From a virus: a stretch of 34,889 nt of DNA. A model generated the notes under the pieces. That model made no database searches and had not been told where the DNA came from. It was given only the letters and a program-made list of their open reading frames with translations. Positions 9,788 through 16,406 of this stretch are shown in pieces. The number at the start of each line of letters is the position of its first letter. The stretch's first letter is position 1. The DNA is taken from positions 1 through 34,889 of IMG/VR virus record IMGVR_UViG_3300023179_000292, one strand, 5' to 3'. Position numbers and translations under genes: made by a program.

Positions 9788-9809
9788 GGGGGCTTTATGC
9801 CCCCTTTTT
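9788..9809 (+). terminator. Rho-independent terminator after gene 32
   Basis: Six-base G/C stem GGGGGC (9788-9793) and GCCCCC (9799-9804), loop TTTAT, then TTTTT (9805-9809). It ends rightward transcription from the gp32 side. The T-tract overlaps the stop codon (9808-9810, minus strand) of the converging tape-measure-like gene. In the reverse direction the tail is ATAAAA rather than T-rich, so it should work mainly on the + strand. Confidence 0.9.
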
Positions 9810-12800
9810 ATGCTGCTAATGGCATCATTGTATTTACTCCTGAACTACGCAATGGATCATAACCTAAGGATCCAGCATTGAAATTATTTACTGTTGTACT
9901 ATTGTCTGTTGTTTGATTTCCACTTCCTACAACATTCACACTGTTATCTTCTTTTACCGCTCCACTAGTTGTAGGCAATGCTGAAGCCGGCAAAGGCGTA
10001 ATTCTAGATGATGTTGAAGTTATCAATCCAGTCGGAGAACTTCCGGATGATGAGGTTGAAACAGGTTTTATATAAGTTGATGAATCGACATGTCTTTTAA
10101 TATCTGACACATCAATAGTGTCAGTTGCTGATTTTTGTCCTTGAACATCATAGTTATAGATTGGATTACCATATTTATCAATTGCTATTACATTATCATC
10201 ATATTTTGTAATTGTATAAGGAACTTTATTTCCAGAATCATCTGTTGTTTCGCCCGTCACTGTTATTTTAGGGGCATCGACATATATTCCTTTTTTGAAG
10301 TCATAGACCATTCTAGGACCTTCGTCTTCACCACCGCCATAAGGCCCCTTGACCTTTAACATATTATAATAATCCTCAATTTCTTTTGATAGTGCAGCAT
10401 TTTCGTGATACAATCCTCCACCAATGGTAGGATCAAAAGTTTTATCACGCTTTAATTCTGACATCAATCCGGTTGCAAGTGATGCAAATGATTTTCCTTT
10501 TACCACTTTAACAGCAGCATCAATTTTCTCAAGTTGTTTAGCATCAGATTTAGTAGCAAACAAATCACGAATCTTTGTTGTCATGTCTGATGCAAGTCGA
10601 CCGAGATTTATTTTGTCTGGCGCACCAAAACGATAAGTGTTTCTAGACTGTTGTGCTGATGTTGATGGTGTTTCTGATCCTTCCAACAAATAAATAATAA
10701 CATCTTCCGGATGAATGTAAACAAGAATTGTGTGGAAAGGAGGTTGAACGCCTGATCTAACTTCTATTAATTTTGTAGCGTTGAAACATGCTTTGATGAT
10801 GTAATCGACAAATCCATATAATTCTTTTGGAGGACCATTTTCTTCTCTAACATTGAAAATATTTTCTATGTTATTATTTCCTAGAACTCTAATGCCTCTC
10901 ACAAGAACAGGTTTCTTAGGTCTAGAGCCAAAGAGTTTTCCTCCTATAAACGAACCGATTACAGCACCAATTCCAGGAAGAATTAAATTGCCTATATACG
11001 CTCCTGCTGCTGAACCAGCAGCACCTTTAAAGTCACCTTTAAATGCTCTGTAAATTGCATCAGCATAAGGTAATACTTCACTAAAAGCTTGCATACCTGC
11101 TGACGCAAAACCGGCATTTTGTGCAGCAATCATTGCTGCTTGTTCACCGAAAGGGTTGATTCCATATTGTAATGCAGCACCAAATTGACCAAGTGTTTGA
11201 CTTCCTGTAAACATTGCAGCATTTGTAAGTGATGCACCTAAAGACCCTGCAAGCGTATATCCTGCGCCTGCTGCGCCTGCTGCGCCTGCTGCGCCTGCTG
11301 CACCCGCACCAGCAGCGCCTCCTCCACCTGCCGCTGCTGTTGTACCAAATATATTTCCAAAAAATTGACTTGCTGCTGGTTTTACAAATTGTTGAGCACC
11401 AGCACTGATTGCAAAATTAGCAAACGCCTTTACATAAGGATTCTTTATGTTTTGTGTTAGTTTGTTTGCAATGACTGCTGTGCCCAAATCAAATGCAAAG
11501 TTTCCTAAACTGCCGAAAAATGATGATGCGCTTCCTGTGCCACTACCTACTACTGTTGTTCCACGACCAGTCTTAGATTCAATCGAAGTTAAAATTTGAT
11601 TTTGTGTATTTTGTAACTGTTCATCTGTTACTTGTTTAGCCAACGATGCTGCATCTCTAGCCTGTTGTGCTGCTTCAATGCCTTCGCCAGCCTTTTTAGC
11701 CTCAAGAAATCTTTTTCCCGCATCATCATATTCTTTCTTTGCAGCATCACTTGCGGCTTTTTGATCATCATATTGTTTAATTAATGATTGATCTATTTTC
11801 CTTAAATAGAATTGTGCATCATCGGTTAATGCACCAGTTCTCATATTAAAGAATCGAGGATCAGGAACGCCAGGAACATTTTCCATTCCTGTATATGAAT
11901 GAGTTCTTCCTGTTCTTGGATCAGTATACTTAGGCGCAGGTGCGTTTGGATTGACAACACCTCTTACTTGATTTGTAATTGCTGCTGCACCAACATCGCC
12001 TAGATAATTTGCTGCTTGTTGCCCTGAACTAAATCCATATTTCATGAACAATGTTTCAGGGCCAGAAGCAACACCAGTCAAGCCATAAAGGAATTGTTCA
12101 GTTGCAACTTGCTTGTTGCCTTTTCTGAAGTTTCCTATAATTTGTCCGGTTAATTGCTCTGCTTGTCCTGGAGGAAGAATACTTCCAAACAATGATCTAC
12201 CGACCGATCTTGCGCCAATTTCAAGATATGCTGTACCTAACTGTGTTACAAGAGGTGCATATGCTTTACCTATTGTTTTACCAAATACATTTGTTAGAAC
12301 TTTTTCTGTGTTTTTTGAAAGGTTCAATGCGCCTGCAAGTTGTTGCCCACGATACATTTCGCCTTTTGCGGTTGCGCTAGAAACTAAACGTGTTCCTTCT
12401 TTTCCATAAAATGCAGTAAATGTTGTTCTAAGTGCGTTTGCAATTAATCTTTGTGTTGTTTGATCAAATGCTGAAAGAAATCTATTTTCCGCGTTTTGAA
12501 TTAATCGTCTGTCGCGTTCTTCTGGTGTTAAAACTCTTCTTGTGGGCCTTACTGTTATTGCTGCAATTTTTGCAGTAACGACTGAAGCATTTGCACCTTT
12601 TTTTGTTTCTTTAAGTTGTGCTGCTGCATATTGATTTGCTTTTTTATCTTCAACTTGCACTGGTTTTTGACGATCAGGAATTATAGTTCCTGATGTATCT
12701 TTTCGTGCTTCAGCAAGACGAAGAAGTTTTTCTACTTCAGACGGTGTTTCTGCAATGATTTTTTTTAATTCATCAGGTGTAGTCGGAGAAACTATTGTTT

Positions 12801-14343
12801 TTTTAGCGGCTTCCTGAAGTGCTGCAATTCTTTGTGGTAAAGGAAGTTTGGCTAATTCTGTTTGATCTGCTATAACAGATAAAGAACTTGTCGGTTTTCT
12901 ATTTTTTAATCTATCAGATATATTTTTATTATTCTGTTCGGCGGTAGCAATTGGTGCTGTCGCATCGAATAATTTTGCTTCATCTTCTCTTCTTTTCTTT
13001 AATCCAGCATTTGTTCTTTCAAGTTGTATTTTGTTTAAATGGGGCGCTTTTTTAGGATCAACGGTAGAAATGCCGTTGCGTAAACTAGCCGCTGCTGCGC
13101 CCATATTGCCAGATTTAATTGCATCTGCAAATCCCTGAGGCATTCTTCCAGTATTATAAACATAACTTAGAATTGCAGTCTTTTGATTTTCGCTTAGTTT
13201 GCTGTATGCTTCTTGACCAATTGCGCCAACAACAATATTTTCAAACTTTTTAATGTCAAGATCAAATAGTTTATCAGCTTGTTCTTTATTAATTTTTGTT
13301 AATGAACCATCTTTGCCCCTAACTTCAATTGAATTGCCGCCACCTAAATCAATTTTTCCTGCTTTAACTTCTTGTTCAGTAATATTATGACCATATCCAA
13401 TTGCGTATCGATCTGTATCTTTTTTTGCAATACTAACATAACCTTCTTTTTGGGTTATGAAAGTTTTAGCATTCACGCTTGGTTCCGCACCTCCAGTCTT
13501 TTGTTGATTTTTCTTTTTTTGTGATTCTCTAATTCTTCTTGCAACATTTTCATCTGGCGTTTCGGTTCCTTTGAGTGATCCGCCAAACATTGCGCCAGGC
13601 TTCATCAAGCCTGCCATTGCATCAATTACTTCATAGGCTAAGAGTGCCCAACCTAGATAAGGAACAAATCTACCTAGACCTCTACCTGCTGTTCCTAATA
13701 TGCCTCCGAGTCCGCCAAATCTACCTCCACCTCCTGGAGGTTTTGGAATTTTGGGTGTTGGTGCTTTTCCTCCACCTACTGCACCACCCCCTCTTCCTAA
13801 AATGTCTCCTAACTTTTTTATTCCAAAAATACTGGCAAGAGCAGTGGCTATGTCACCAAGCCCACTGAATTTTCCAAGCAAATCCATCAATGATGATCCG
13901 CCTGCTCCTGATCCAGTTCCGTCTTTACCTGGTTTTAAATCTTGAATCGCTTTTAAAAGTTTATCATCACGAAGTGTTTTTTCTCTTTCAGCCTCTTCTG
14001 TAAATAATTGTTTTTGTTTTTCTGAATTTAATTGTTGCTGTACAAGACGATTTTGAATCGTAACTGAATTGTTAATGGCTCTCAAGGAGCGGGCCATGTC
14101 AAGACTTATAACATTATTTTTTCTTTGCTCTTGAACGACATCTTGTGTTGCTTCTAAATTTTTTTCTTCATATATTTTGTTTGCTTTGTCTTTAATTTCT
14201 TTAGATAAAGCATAAAGCGCAGTAAATGCTGGCATTTCTGCCATTGCTGCACCTTTAATGCCTTGACCAAATCCTTTAACAGTTGCTTTGGCAGAATCGA
14301 GCACCATTTGCCCGATTGCTCTGCCATAATCTGAAATTGCCAT
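9808..14343 (-). CDS. Giant tape-measure-like tail protein with embedded GH24 lysozyme domain
   Basis: A 1511-residue protein, last of the leftward tail operon, placed after the tube-fold protein and the frameshifted chaperone, where long-tailed phages carry the tape measure. Residues 1-150 are helical and Gln/Glu/Lys-rich; about 150-260 form Gly/Pro-rich and hydrophobic segments. Residues about 290-455 are a T4-lysozyme-type domain: KEGYVSIAKKDTDRYAIGYGH gives Glu300 and Asp309 in the exact T4 Glu11/Asp20 spacing, but the catalytic Thr26 position is Ala314. Later parts include Ala/Gly-rich hydrophobic repeats (about residues 980-1120), an unknown domain about 1140-1225 (KPVLVRGIRVLG to DVIIYLLEG) and an Asn/Ser/Thr-rich C-terminus. 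T4 gp29 has 590 residues, so this is far larger. It may be a tape measure plus cell-wall-cutting module; the tape-measure role is inferred from order, the lysozyme domain is seen. Confidence 0.75.
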   Translation of the reverse strand: MAISDYGRAIGQMVLDSAKATVKGFGQGIKGAAMAEMPAFTALYALSKEIKDKANKIYEEKNLEATQDVVQEQRKNNVISLDMARSLRAINNSVTIQNRLVQQQLNSEKQKQLFTEEAEREKTLRDDKLLKAIQDLKPGKDGTGSGAGGSSLMDLLGKFSGLGDIATALASIFGIKKLGDILGRGGGAVGGGKAPTPKIPKPPGGGGRFGGLGGILGTAGRGLGRFVPYLGWALLAYEVIDAMAGLMKPGAMFGGSLKGTETPDENVARRIRESQKKKNQQKTGGAEPSVNAKTFITQKEGYVSIAKKDTDRYAIGYGHNITEQEVKAGKIDLGGGNSIEVRGKDGSLTKINKEQADKLFDLDIKKFENIVVGAIGQEAYSKLSENQKTAILSYVYNTGRMPQGFADAIKSGNMGAAAASLRNGISTVDPKKAPHLNKIQLERTNAGLKKRREDEAKLFDATAPIATAEQNNKNISDRLKNRKPTSSLSVIADQTELAKLPLPQRIAALQEAAKKTIVSPTTPDELKKIIAETPSEVEKLLRLAEARKDTSGTIIPDRQKPVQVEDKKANQYAAAQLKETKKGANASVVTAKIAAITVRPTRRVLTPEERDRRLIQNAENRFLSAFDQTTQRLIANALRTTFTAFYGKEGTRLVSSATAKGEMYRGQQLAGALNLSKNTEKVLTNVFGKTIGKAYAPLVTQLGTAYLEIGARSVGRSLFGSILPPGQAEQLTGQIIGNFRKGNKQVATEQFLYGLTGVASGPETLFMKYGFSSGQQAANYLGDVGAAAITNQVRGVVNPNAPAPKYTDPRTGRTHSYTGMENVPGVPDPRFFNMRTGALTDDAQFYLRKIDQSLIKQYDDQKAASDAAKKEYDDAGKRFLEAKKAGEGIEAAQQARDAASLAKQVTDEQLQNTQNQILTSIESKTGRGTTVVGSGTGSASSFFGSLGNFAFDLGTAVIANKLTQNIKNPYVKAFANFAISAGAQQFVKPAASQFFGNIFGTTAAAGGGGAAGAGAAGAAGAAGAAGAGYTLAGSLGASLTNAAMFTGSQTLGQFGAALQYGINPFGEQAAMIAAQNAGFASAGMQAFSEVLPYADAIYRAFKGDFKGAAGSAAGAYIGNLILPGIGAVIGSFIGGKLFGSRPKKPVLVRGIRVLGNNNIENIFNVREENGPPKELYGFVDYIIKACFNATKLIEVRSGVQPPFHTILVYIHPEDVIIYLLEGSETPSTSAQQSRNTYRFGAPDKINLGRLASDMTTKIRDLFATKSDAKQLEKIDAAVKVVKGKSFASLATGLMSELKRDKTFDPTIGGGLYHENAALSKEIEDYYNMLKVKGPYGGGEDEGPRMVYDFKKGIYVDAPKITVTGETTDDSGNKVPYTITKYDDNVIAIDKYGNPIYNYDVQGQKSATDTIDVSDIKRHVDSSTYIKPVSTSSSGSSPTGLITSTSSRITPLPASALPTTSGAVKEDNSVNVVGSGNQTTDNSTTVNNFNAGSLGYDPLRSSGVNTMMPLAA
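11264..11299 (-). repeat. Four perfect copies of a 9-bp minisatellite inside the tape-measure-like gene
   Basis: The unit GCGCCTGCT (plus strand) is repeated four times without error and continues imperfectly on both sides. It is read on the minus strand as an Ala-Gly-Ala tract. Because the unit is three codons, copy-number changes keep the frame, so the tract can change length by replication slippage. Confidence 0.85.
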
Positions 14344-14834
14344 TAGCCACGCTCCAGAACCGCATCAGGATCAATATCTTTCATGTTTCTATTCATTGCA
14401 GGACGTGGACTTGACATTCCCATCGGAGAAGGATTAATAGGTGTAACAGTATCATAGGTTCTAGTTACTGACATTTGAGTGGTGTTCATTCCCATACCAC
14501 CCATGCCTCCCATACCCATACCACCAGCAGGAGCACCAACACCTACGCTTGATGTTGTAGAAACACCTGCCATTTTTTCTTGTCCTCTAGACCATGCAGT
14601 GATACCTAAAACAGCACCCATGGCTAAATGATATAAACCACCATTCGAAAGAGTAAGTGGAACCCACTGTCTAAAAGCATCATTTGCAGCTTGTGTTTCC
14701 CAAAACTGAACAATTGTAAACATTATAGGAAATACAACAAAATCAAACACGCACACAAACATATATTGCCAGCCCATCATTGGGCGCCATTTTCTTTGCA
14801 TCCAGTCTTCCGCTGGTTTCTTTTCTTCGGCCAT
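14343..14834 (-). CDS. Holin-like membrane protein
   Basis: A 163-residue protein with a RKWRPMMGWQYM entry into a hydrophobic segment (about residues 21-44, containing Asp31), a second one (about 65-81) and the end ITAWSRGQEK. This resembles the 3TM-type holin/GTA holin family (WRP at the first helix and a G-x5-GR/WGRS-EK-like exit from the last). The C-terminal 75 residues are a Gly/Met-rich, probably disordered cytoplasmic tail (GGMGMGGMGGMGM). It starts directly after the stop of the frameshift extension and its own stop shares one base with the ATG of the lysozyme-bearing giant protein. Holin beside a lysozyme domain is suggestive of lysis, but location within the tail operon also allows a structural or DNA-entry role. 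Confidence 0.6.
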   Translation of the reverse strand: MAEEKKPAEDWMQRKWRPMMGWQYMFVCVFDFVVFPIMFTIVQFWETQAANDAFRQWVPLTLSNGGLYHLAMGAVLGITAWSRGQEKMAGVSTTSSVGVGAPAGGMGMGGMGGMGMNTTQMSVTRTYDTVTPINPSPMGMSSPRPAMNRNMKDIDPDAVLERG

Positions 14835-15766
14835 TTATTTGCCTCTTTGTCGTGATTGCTCTTTTATTCTTTCATTTTCTTCAGTCACATGCTGGGAGAG
14901 TAATAGGACATAAATTTCTCTCTCAAAAGGCATCATATTTTCCAAATCTTCTAAACTGTATTTATGATGTTGCATTAGGGCAAAGTTTGTTTTGTAATAG
15001 TTTAACAAACTTTCTTGCCCTAACGTTATACGAAAAAATTTGCTAGGCCCTCCAAAGTAATTTCTTCATCTTTGTTACATCCGGGACACTTCCAACCAAA
15101 CGTATGCTTTAGTTTAGGCATTGTTTCAAAAAATCTTGATAGTTTTTGAAATTGTTCTTGAGATAGATTTTCGACAAATTCTACAAGTTCTTCCTTTGTA
15201 GAATCTTCTTTTTTGTATATGTTATCTTTGTCAAAAATGAAATCAATCGAATTGATAATTGCATCAGTTGCTAGTTCAATCTGATTTTTATCTTCAGCCA
15301 CATCTGCTGAAATAATCATCTCTGCTGTTGGATATTTAAATTTAACACCAATTCCAGTTGCATCATCTAATACAATTTTATCTTGATGCTCAATATTTTT
15401 GTGAACCTCAACATTCAACAAGTTTAGTTTATATCTTGTAGTATGATTGCATTCTTCGCCGTCAACATTTGTATTTGCAGGATGATTTAAATTTAATTCA
15501 ATTTCTTCACCTACAGATTTTGCTCTTAGTCTTAAGAAGAAATATTCTAAATCAAATACAGGCAATTTATCAACGTCAATTTCGTCAATTGCACAGTTTG
15601 TAATAATTTGTTTGATCGCTAACATCATTGCTTTTTGATCTGATGCTTCCATAGCAATCAATAAAATCTTTTGTTCTTTAACTAAGAACGGTCTATATTT
15701 TACTGACTGCCCAGTGGAGGGCAATATTAATTCAAAAAGCGGTGCACTAATTTTAGGTAAAGCCAT
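14835..15766 (-). CDS. -1 frameshift fusion form of the gp26/gp51-type protein (about 310 residues)
   Basis: Ribosomes slipping back one base on AAATTTT at residue 244 would read 66 more codons to a TAA at 14835-14837, directly before the holin-like ATG. The added residues read FRITLGQESLLNYYKTNF, then ALMQHHKYSLEDLENMMPFE, then a helical REIYVLLLSQHVTEENERIK tail. The pattern HHKYSLEDLENMMPFEREIY is typical coding sequence (and resembles the last part of related phage hub/chaperone proteins as I recall them). The frame has no start with a ribosome-binding site of its own, fills the otherwise empty 191 bases, and ends exactly at the next gene. This mirrors lambda gpG/gpGT. It was not reported as a separate open frame because it depends on frameshifting. 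Confidence 0.8.
14972..15041 (-). promoter_or_regulatory. Programmed -1 ribosomal frameshift signal: slippery site plus stem-loop
   Basis: On the minus strand the heptamer A-AAT-TTT (15041-15035) is in the right phase for the X-XXY-YYZ rule. After nine bases (15034-15026, containing the frame-0 TAA) comes a stem: 5' arm 15025-15004, loop 15003-14992, 3' arm 14991-14972. The stem pairs 11 outer bases (one G-U) and 8 inner bases around a three-base GAA bulge. There is no T-tract after it, so it is not a terminator. Confidence 0.88.
15026..15766 (-). CDS. T4 gp26/gp51-type baseplate hub/tail-assembly protein, frame-0 product
   Basis: A 246-residue protein beginning MALPKISAPLFELILPSTG, of the T4 baseplate protein family annotated gp26 or gp51 in marine T4-like phages. 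The core PFLVKEQKILLIAMEA, then IKQIITNC, then LPVFDLEYFFLRLRAKSVGE is the family signature. A CPGCN pair near the C-terminus may bind metal with an upstream Cys/His. The open frame continues to a TTG at 15778, but ATG at 15766 with GGAG six bases before it is clearly the start. The frame-0 stop (15026-15028) lies inside a frameshift signal. Genes at this site, between tube and tape measure, are tail-assembly chaperones in other phages; that role is inferred. Confidence 0.8.
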   Translation of the reverse strand: MALPKISAPLFELILPSTGQSVKYRPFLVKEQKILLIAMEASDQKAMMLAIKQIITNCAIDEIDVDKLPVFDLEYFFLRLRAKSVGEEIELNLNHPANTNVDGEECNHTTRYKLNLLNVEVHKNIEHQDKIVLDDATGIGVKFKYPTAEMIISADVAEDKNQIELATDAIINSIDFIFDKDNIYKKEDSTKEELVEFVENLSQEQFQKLSRFFETMPKLKHTFGWKCPGCNKDEEITLEGLANFFV

Positions 15767-15788
15767 AATTTTCTCCAATCATGAAAAA

Positions 15789-16406
15789 TTAAAGTAAAAA
15801 CGCAAACTCTGAACTGTAAGTATAATATCTATAAGCAAGTGTAACACCAAATCTTTGATAGGTGTTAATTTCTTCCCAAGTCGCACTCATTGGCGTAAGA
15901 GCGATAGGATAAACATCGTACATAGTATATGAACAAAGTATTAAACCTTTCGAATCTAATTGATCTACCGTCAATTTATTTCCTTGTGCATATTCGTTAT
16001 AAAAACGAAGCGTCCCTGCACCTTCATTGCCGGCAGGAATGACAATAAAATCAATCCATGCTTCAAAAAGTGTTCTTTCTGCAAAATCTTCAGCACAAAT
16101 AATTGACAATTGAATATCGTTATAAGTTACATCATACGGCAATTTCAATGAAGGACCAGCGCCGACAGCATCCTCAACTGTTGCAACTGTTCTGCCTGGC
16201 AATTCAGCACGTTCACACCTAAATTTAAAATTATCAAGACTTTTTCCTAATGCAAGTCTTGCTAAAAGACTAGATTTAACTGAAAGTTCGGCTTGAAATA
16301 AATTTGGTCTTGCAAGTCCCGAACCTAACGCTGCCCTTAAATCTGATATCTTAAAACTTGCTCTAGGTATTCGGTTTCCTATAACTGTTACTGTTTCATT
16401 TGCCAT
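15789..16406 (-). CDS. Tail-tube-fold protein (gp19/gp54 family)
   Basis: A 205-residue protein of the T4 tube fold. The start SGLARPNLFQAELSV matches T4 gp19 (SGDFARPNLFQVEI). FKFRCERAELPGRTVATVE is equivalent to the gp19 FQCKATALPAG step, and the C-terminus has YPIALTPMSATWEEINTYQRFGVTLAYRYY, like the gp19/gp54 final strands ending in FEVTLA-DYW or FDVTFAYR. gp19 builds the inner tail tube; gp54 starts it on the baseplate and has the same fold. The main tube gene usually sits by the sheath gene, which is not here, so a gp54-like tube initiator is at least as likely. It follows GGAG ten bases upstream and precedes the chaperone-like gene. Confidence 0.75.
   Translation of the reverse strand: MANETVTVIGNRIPRASFKISDLRAALGSGLARPNLFQAELSVKSSLLARLALGKSLDNFKFRCERAELPGRTVATVEDAVGAGPSLKLPYDVTYNDIQLSIICAEDFAERTLFEAWIDFIVIPAGNEGAGTLRFYNEYAQGNKLTVDQLDSKGLILCSYTMYDVYPIALTPMSATWEEINTYQRFGVTLAYRYYTYSSEFAFLL

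Follow-up and report, generated by a model that had tools for sequence, protein, structure and literature searches.

A conserved six-T slippery run and a putative programmed -1 frameshift linking gp26 to gp51 in a T4-like virus

The gp51 protein of cyanophages was reported to have about 20% of its usual length (Sullivan et al., 2010, PMC3037559), and in cyanophages and marine vibriophages it appears without its first ~200 residues (PMC3037559). The locus described here raises the question of whether gp51 in such genomes is a gene of its own or the end of gp26, reached by a change of reading frame. The DNA analysed, referred to below as the window, is the whole 34,889-base stretch of the IMG/VR record IMGVR_UViG_3300023179_000292; it belongs to a marine T4-like virus and carries the gp26/gp51 locus on the minus strand. 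A sequence-only reading of the window had proposed a programmed -1 frameshift that fuses gp26 to a gp51-like domain, and had offered as a new idea that these proteins are tail assembly chaperones (TAC). The latter was already published: according to PMC10885494 and PMC12846349, gp26/gp51 were described as the tail assembly chaperones of T4-like phages by Vladimirov, Gautam and Davidson (2022, Virology 566:9-15). As cited in the PRFect paper (PMC10885494), that study found separate short and fused long genes in some T4-like phages, and the Adele paper (PMC12846349, 2025) credits it with poly-T slippery signals in T4-like TAC-N genes. The core trick, as in the gpG/gpGT frameshift of lambda (Xu, Hendrix and Duda, 2004, cited in PMC10885494; reviewed in PMC5009743), is already known in phages, and the window is very probably a further case. 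Here, the elements around the putative slip site and their conservation among relatives are described.

The genes around the locus form a tail/neck module of the ordinary T4-like kind (Table 1). Besides the tail-tube-like gene, the upstream side has gp4 (phrog_218) and a DNA end protector (phrog_429). Genes for the baseplate wedge and hub are close by. Downstream of the gp26-like gene, the 1511-aa ORF is a tape-measure candidate by position only. Its lysozyme domain, the only part with an assignment, is located near the N-terminal third, which would make it a candidate tape measure with a built-in lysozyme, and the holin-like ORF sits between the chaperone gene and this candidate.

Table 1. 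Features of the gp26/gp51 locus and its neighbours, with positions in the window.
Feature	Position	Strand	Basis
Tail-tube-like gene, directly upstream of the gp26-like ORF	15789..16406	-	phrog_45 tail tube, E=4.6e-38
gp26-like frame-0 ORF, putative TAC-N, 246 aa from ATG 15766	15026..15766	-	PF12322, phrog_150, AlphaFold2
Internal Shine-Dalgarno-like GGAGGG, 9 nt upstream of the slippery heptamer	15048..15053	-	Sequence; anti-SD energy
AAATTTT, overlapping the in-phase heptamer	15035..15041	-	36/153 distinct loci; not conserved
Conserved heptamer U UUU UUC, in phase (AAT TTT TTC)	15032..15038	-	In-frame T6 in 153/153 distinct loci
gp26 frame-0 stop TAA, one codon past UUUUUUC	15026..15028	-	Sequence
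-1 extension, 65 codons + stop, gp51-like C-terminal domain of the putative 310-aa TAC-NC	14835..15032	-	phrog_634, dN/dS
Putative stimulatory stem-loop, 11 bp + 3-nt bulge + 8 bp, 12-nt loop	14973..15025	-	RNAfold -22.1 kcal/mol
Holin-like membrane protein, 163 aa, directly downstream of the -1 extension	14343..14834	-	PF11351, E=7.3e-6; phrog_3427, E=3e-7
1511-aa protein with a lysozyme domain	9808..14343	-	PF00959, E=3.7e-9, residues 298-455

The gp26-like ORF matched PF12322 (T4_baseplate, E=8.8e-62) and phrog_150 (E=1.7e-66). An alternative in-frame TTG at 15778, upstream of the ATG, would lengthen its product to 250 aa; counted from the ATG, the sizes of 246 and 310 residues predicted for the short and the long product are right. 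The AlphaFold2 model of gp26, for which the input rows were the window and IMG/VR loci only, had a pLDDT of 90.7, and its clear fold matches were other T4-like gp26 proteins. The top match of the model in a PDB fold search was the HK97 tail assembly chaperone 2ob9, which at a non-significant E=0.8 gives only a hint of a shared fold, and a sequence search of the PDB returned no credible match.

The in-frame 3' end of the gp26-like ORF reads TTG GAG GGC CTA GCA AAT TTT TTC GTA TAA. Two in-phase heptamers, AAATTTT and T TTT TTC, overlap in the same T-run, and in-frame heptamers of the form X XXY YYZ are frequent by chance in the window (96 in 9248 codons), although T TTT TTC occurs in frame only in the gp26-like gene, one codon from its stop. 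A heptamer by itself proves nothing, and the proof lies in its conservation. Scanning viral contigs by protein alone, with the gp26 of the window as query, gave no matches, and relatives were retrieved instead with the -1 extension and with a clade alignment. The in-phase U UUU UUN was present in all 89 loci found via the -1 extension, and equally in all 80 loci found with gp26 motifs only, a set that was not chosen by its slippery site. Combined, the two sets comprise 153 distinct loci, with the variants UUUUUUC (121), UUUUUUU (17) and UUUUUUA (15), and none of them keeps the gp26 stop and lacks the slippery run. The column diversity at the six T positions was 0.00, and the adjacent columns vary. 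The gp26 stop lay 0-2 codons past the heptamer in 86 of the 89 extension-found loci and in all 80 of the gp26-motif set. The sequence-only reading had named AAATTTT as the slippery site and overlooked both T TTT TTC and the GGAGGG at 15053-15048. AAATTTT is indeed present and in frame, at 15041-15035, but as the slip site it was rejected, since only 36 of the 153 distinct loci have it whereas all of them have the T6. The first Phe codon at the slip site is always TTT, compared with TTC in 212 of 805 Phe codons elsewhere, and the UUUUUUA sites encode Phe-Leu; therefore it is the nucleotides that are conserved, and not the protein alone.

Beyond the gp26 stop, the -1 frame is open up to the next ATG, as had been noted from the sequence, and ends with TAA at 14837-14835, directly before the ATG at 14834. 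The extension matched phrog_634, the "baseplate hub assembly catalyst" (E=2.7e-28), and also the extreme C-terminal end of the gp26 profile (phrog_150, positions 237-279), which would be expected of a family that includes a fused form. A three-helix domain was predicted for it, and a fold search with the gp51 domain gave no significant match. The frame is open in all loci of both sets, with two short cases in the gp26-motif set that coincide with contig ends. Among 84 distinct loci its variation is of the codon type, with third positions most variable, and dN/dS was ~0.14 for codons 1-18 and ~0.10 for codons 19-48. The substitution pattern is therefore of the coding type, in agreement with the earlier claim, and by this measure purifying selection acts on the -1 extension. 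Of 89 loci, 82 lack any ATG, GTG or TTG in the -1 ORF before the slip; the first ATG mostly comes at residue 18 or 19, past a conserved LxNYYKTNFAL stretch. Judged by its substitutions, the -1 ORF is thus a real coding region, without its own start codon in most loci, and the scarcity of start codons before the slip together with the conserved early codons makes translation from upstream the best explanation of the N-terminal part of gp51.

These start codons also bear on the view that gp51 is a separate small gene, with its own start, translated by reinitiation or translational coupling after gp26. Isolate genomes are annotated in this way: gp51 is given as a separate short CDS in P-SSM2 (L003), S-SSM5 (L008), phiM7 and nt-1 (L006), as well as in DLP6 (L094), and in none of seven isolate records checked that have gp51 as its own CDS is it joined to gp26. 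A Shine-Dalgarno element near a gene end can also serve coupling (PMC5009743), and the window has a TTG at residue 8 of the extension. However, besides the lack of early start codons in most loci, the position of the first ATG, GTG or TTG varies from residue 1 to 19, the usual first ATG lies downstream of codons that are conserved and under purifying selection, the Shine-Dalgarno element is too distant from any such start, and the invariant in-phase T6 would be left unexplained. We consider a separate gp51 gene very unlikely. The invariant in-phase T6, the coding -1 frame and the usual lack of a start before the slip lead instead to a programmed -1 ribosomal frameshift, strongly supported by comparative evidence, that would make gp26 and gp26-gp51 as a short/long TAC pair.

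The same slip site was found in Kyanoviridae, the Vibrio nt-1 group, Emdodecavirus, Melnitz, DLP6, Yut2 and ACP17, and T TTT TTC with a gp51-like -1 extension in Acidovorax phage ACP17, S-CRM01, DLP6 and Yut2. The T4-type arrangement, with a separate short gp26 and a long gp51, is absent in the window, which has a single gp26 ORF with the -1 extension. It is present in IME13, where gp26 and a 249-aa gp51 are separate genes; in both IME13 and Vibrio phage phiKT1024, a short gp26-like gene accompanies a longer one that ends in the gp51 domain. In phiKT1024 (L093, 811-2153), adjacent genes encode a 216-aa gp26-like and a 229-aa gp26-gp51-like protein, a pair that resembles the T4-type split without a frameshift and is tandem, not divergent. 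In CBA120 and VP-1 (Ackermannviridae), gp26 is followed by a gp51-like -1 extension, but no canonical X XXY YYZ heptamer is present; GATTTTC or GTTTTTC was seen at the heptamer position in CBA120 (L095, 2715-2744) and VP-1 (L096, 2730-2759).

Two further elements flank the slippery run. Upstream, the Shine-Dalgarno-like GGAGGG has an anti-SD energy of -9.8 and no start codon at initiation distance. Family-wide, the mean anti-SD energy within the last 90 nt has a peak only at the offset of this element. The site encodes a conserved Glu-Gly pair in which GAG is used in a ratio of 74:48, against 2:41 in the other Glu-Gly pairs of the same genes (Fisher p=1.5e-11), and this synonymous enrichment suggests that selection acts on the RNA. 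Internal Shine-Dalgarno elements were reported to promote -1 frameshifts in dnaX as well as in many IS elements (PMC5009743).

Downstream, the stem-loop begins 6 nt from UUUUUUC, a typical distance, and RNAfold confirmed the geometry that had been proposed for it. It folds better than dinucleotide shuffles (z -4.7; 0/200 shuffles fold as well) and than synonymous recodings of the -1 frame (z -6.8; 0/3000 reach it), and it is the strongest of those at the 153 loci. Based on a 78-nt window and the synonymous-recoding null, a family-wide excess of structure was detected, with a mean z of -1.46 at the site versus -0.20 to -0.71 in four control windows; the Mann-Whitney p of 6e-12 is uncorrected for the relatedness of the loci and is optimistic, because related loci are not independent and the control windows are themselves slightly negative in z. 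A 50-nt folding window gave no family-wide signal, because it cuts off the long 3' arms. The excess is significant family-wide and its form varies by lineage: the clade of the window has long-range stems, several UUUUUUA loci have compact hairpins right behind the gp26 stop, and about two thirds of the relatives have no clearly unusual downstream structure. It had been expected that the stem arms are conserved with compensatory changes. As such this did not hold, since a search of the relatives gave no conserved stem of which the pairs show simple compensatory changes. The nearest relatives retain 6-10 of the 11 outer and 3-5 of the 8 inner pairs of the window, with the exception of one locus (L103) that keeps only 4 of the 11 outer pairs, and in another (L098) the stem is re-formed in a shifted register. 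As its pairs are only partly kept even there, the long stem is best regarded as a lineage-specific elaboration.

Some observations concern the A-ending heptamers, which have the strongest mean structure. The compact hairpin just past the gp26 stop is perfect in the UUUUUUA-class loci L017, L022, L025, L029, L054, L085 and L015, and its arms covary (GGCTCTC/GAGAGCC, GACTCTC/GAGAGTC, GACTATC/GATAGTC and GACTTTC/GAAAGTC).

The positioned Shine-Dalgarno element and the structure excess also weigh against transcriptional slippage, in which the six-T run would give rise to length-altered mRNAs and the fusion would be made by standard translation. In its favour, what is conserved is a homopolymer, and transcriptional slippage is a recognised alternative to frameshifting by the ribosome (PMC5009743). 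However, this homopolymer is a short one, and in every case its phase (U UUU UUN) lets both tRNAs re-pair in the -1 frame. The two flanking elements, moreover, are of the kind that stimulates ribosomes and would be irrelevant to slipping of RNA polymerase. Runs of six bases are in general poor sites of transcriptional slippage. Altogether, we regard this explanation as highly improbable. The window is a single metagenomic record, but the chance that its frame change reflects a sequencing error or gene decay is negligible. Conservation already excludes this, as the same architecture recurs in no fewer than 150 distinct loci, and also in isolate genomes, with the -1 frame under purifying selection.

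As a whole, the data are very probably best explained by a -1 slip at UUUUUUC that yields a TAC-N and TAC-NC pair. We infer the slip itself, its frequency and the share of each stimulator, and the following course can be proposed. Most ribosomes would finish at the gp26 stop and release the TAC-N. A minority would pause, with the internal Shine-Dalgarno element pairing with 16S rRNA behind and the stem-loop resisting unwinding ahead, and the tRNA-Phe in the P and A sites on U UUU UUC would re-pair one base back (UUU UUU). The slipped ribosomes would then read CGT ATA ACG and onwards beyond the stop, adding the gp51 domain to give the TAC-NC. If the two forms work like lambda gpG and gpGT, the tape-measure protein may be coated by many copies of the short form and few of the long one, and the gp51 domain of the latter may recruit tail-tube subunits.

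The locus shares several features with known systems. As in lambda gpG/gpGT, one gene would give both a short and a long chaperone through a -1 slip close to where its first ORF ends. The gene belongs to the tail module, with a tail-tube-like gene upstream and, by position only, a tape-measure candidate downstream. Unlike in lambda, the heptamer is UUUUUUC, an internal Shine-Dalgarno element and a long stem are present, and one ORF intervenes before the tape-measure candidate. The gp26 protein is also about twice the size of the small siphophage chaperones, such as the HK97 chain of 104-107 aa. The protein families, and the gp51 domain on the long form, are the same as in the T4-like gp26/gp51 pairs, whereas the two separate genes of IME13 are replaced here by one gene and a putative frameshift. 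In the chaperone genes of Vandenendeviridae and Andersonviridae (PMC12846349), a T-rich run at the TAC-N end and an open -1 frame are likewise present in all genomes, but the invariant sequence there is GTTTTT rather than a full T TTT TTN. The overall layout resembles E. coli dnaX, which has an internal Shine-Dalgarno element ~10 nt upstream of an in-phase heptamer and a stem-loop a few nucleotides downstream; dnaX differs in its heptamer (A AAA AAG) and in that its slip product is the shorter one, whereas here it would be the longer. In this dnaX-like cassette, the Shine-Dalgarno element at its 9-nt gap is enriched family-wide beyond protein coding, and the stem at its 6-nt spacer is variable in relatives.

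A tentative and somewhat doubtful extension of this comparison is that a three-part cassette (internal Shine-Dalgarno element, invariant U6 and fast-evolving 3' structure) is kept and tuned across Kyanoviridae and their neighbours, with lineages trading heptamer against stem strength to set the short/long ratio. The UUUUUUA sites, which tend to have the strongest compact hairpins, would fit into such a scheme, and the window would be an extreme strong-stem case. Unlike the slippery run, the cassette may be undescribed so far; no description of the Shine-Dalgarno element and the lineage-specific stems was found in the open-access literature, which is weak evidence of novelty.

With regard to the question raised at the outset, the frameshift appears to account for the gp51 annotation puzzle: gp51 would seem short in cyanophages and marine vibriophages because it is the frameshifted tail of gp26 and has no gene of its own. 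Many annotations of marine phage genomes could be corrected on this basis, and a gp51 CDS with the frameshift architecture should be annotated as a joined CDS. The Shine-Dalgarno element and the variable stems, moreover, make the ratio of the short to the long product directly testable with reporters.
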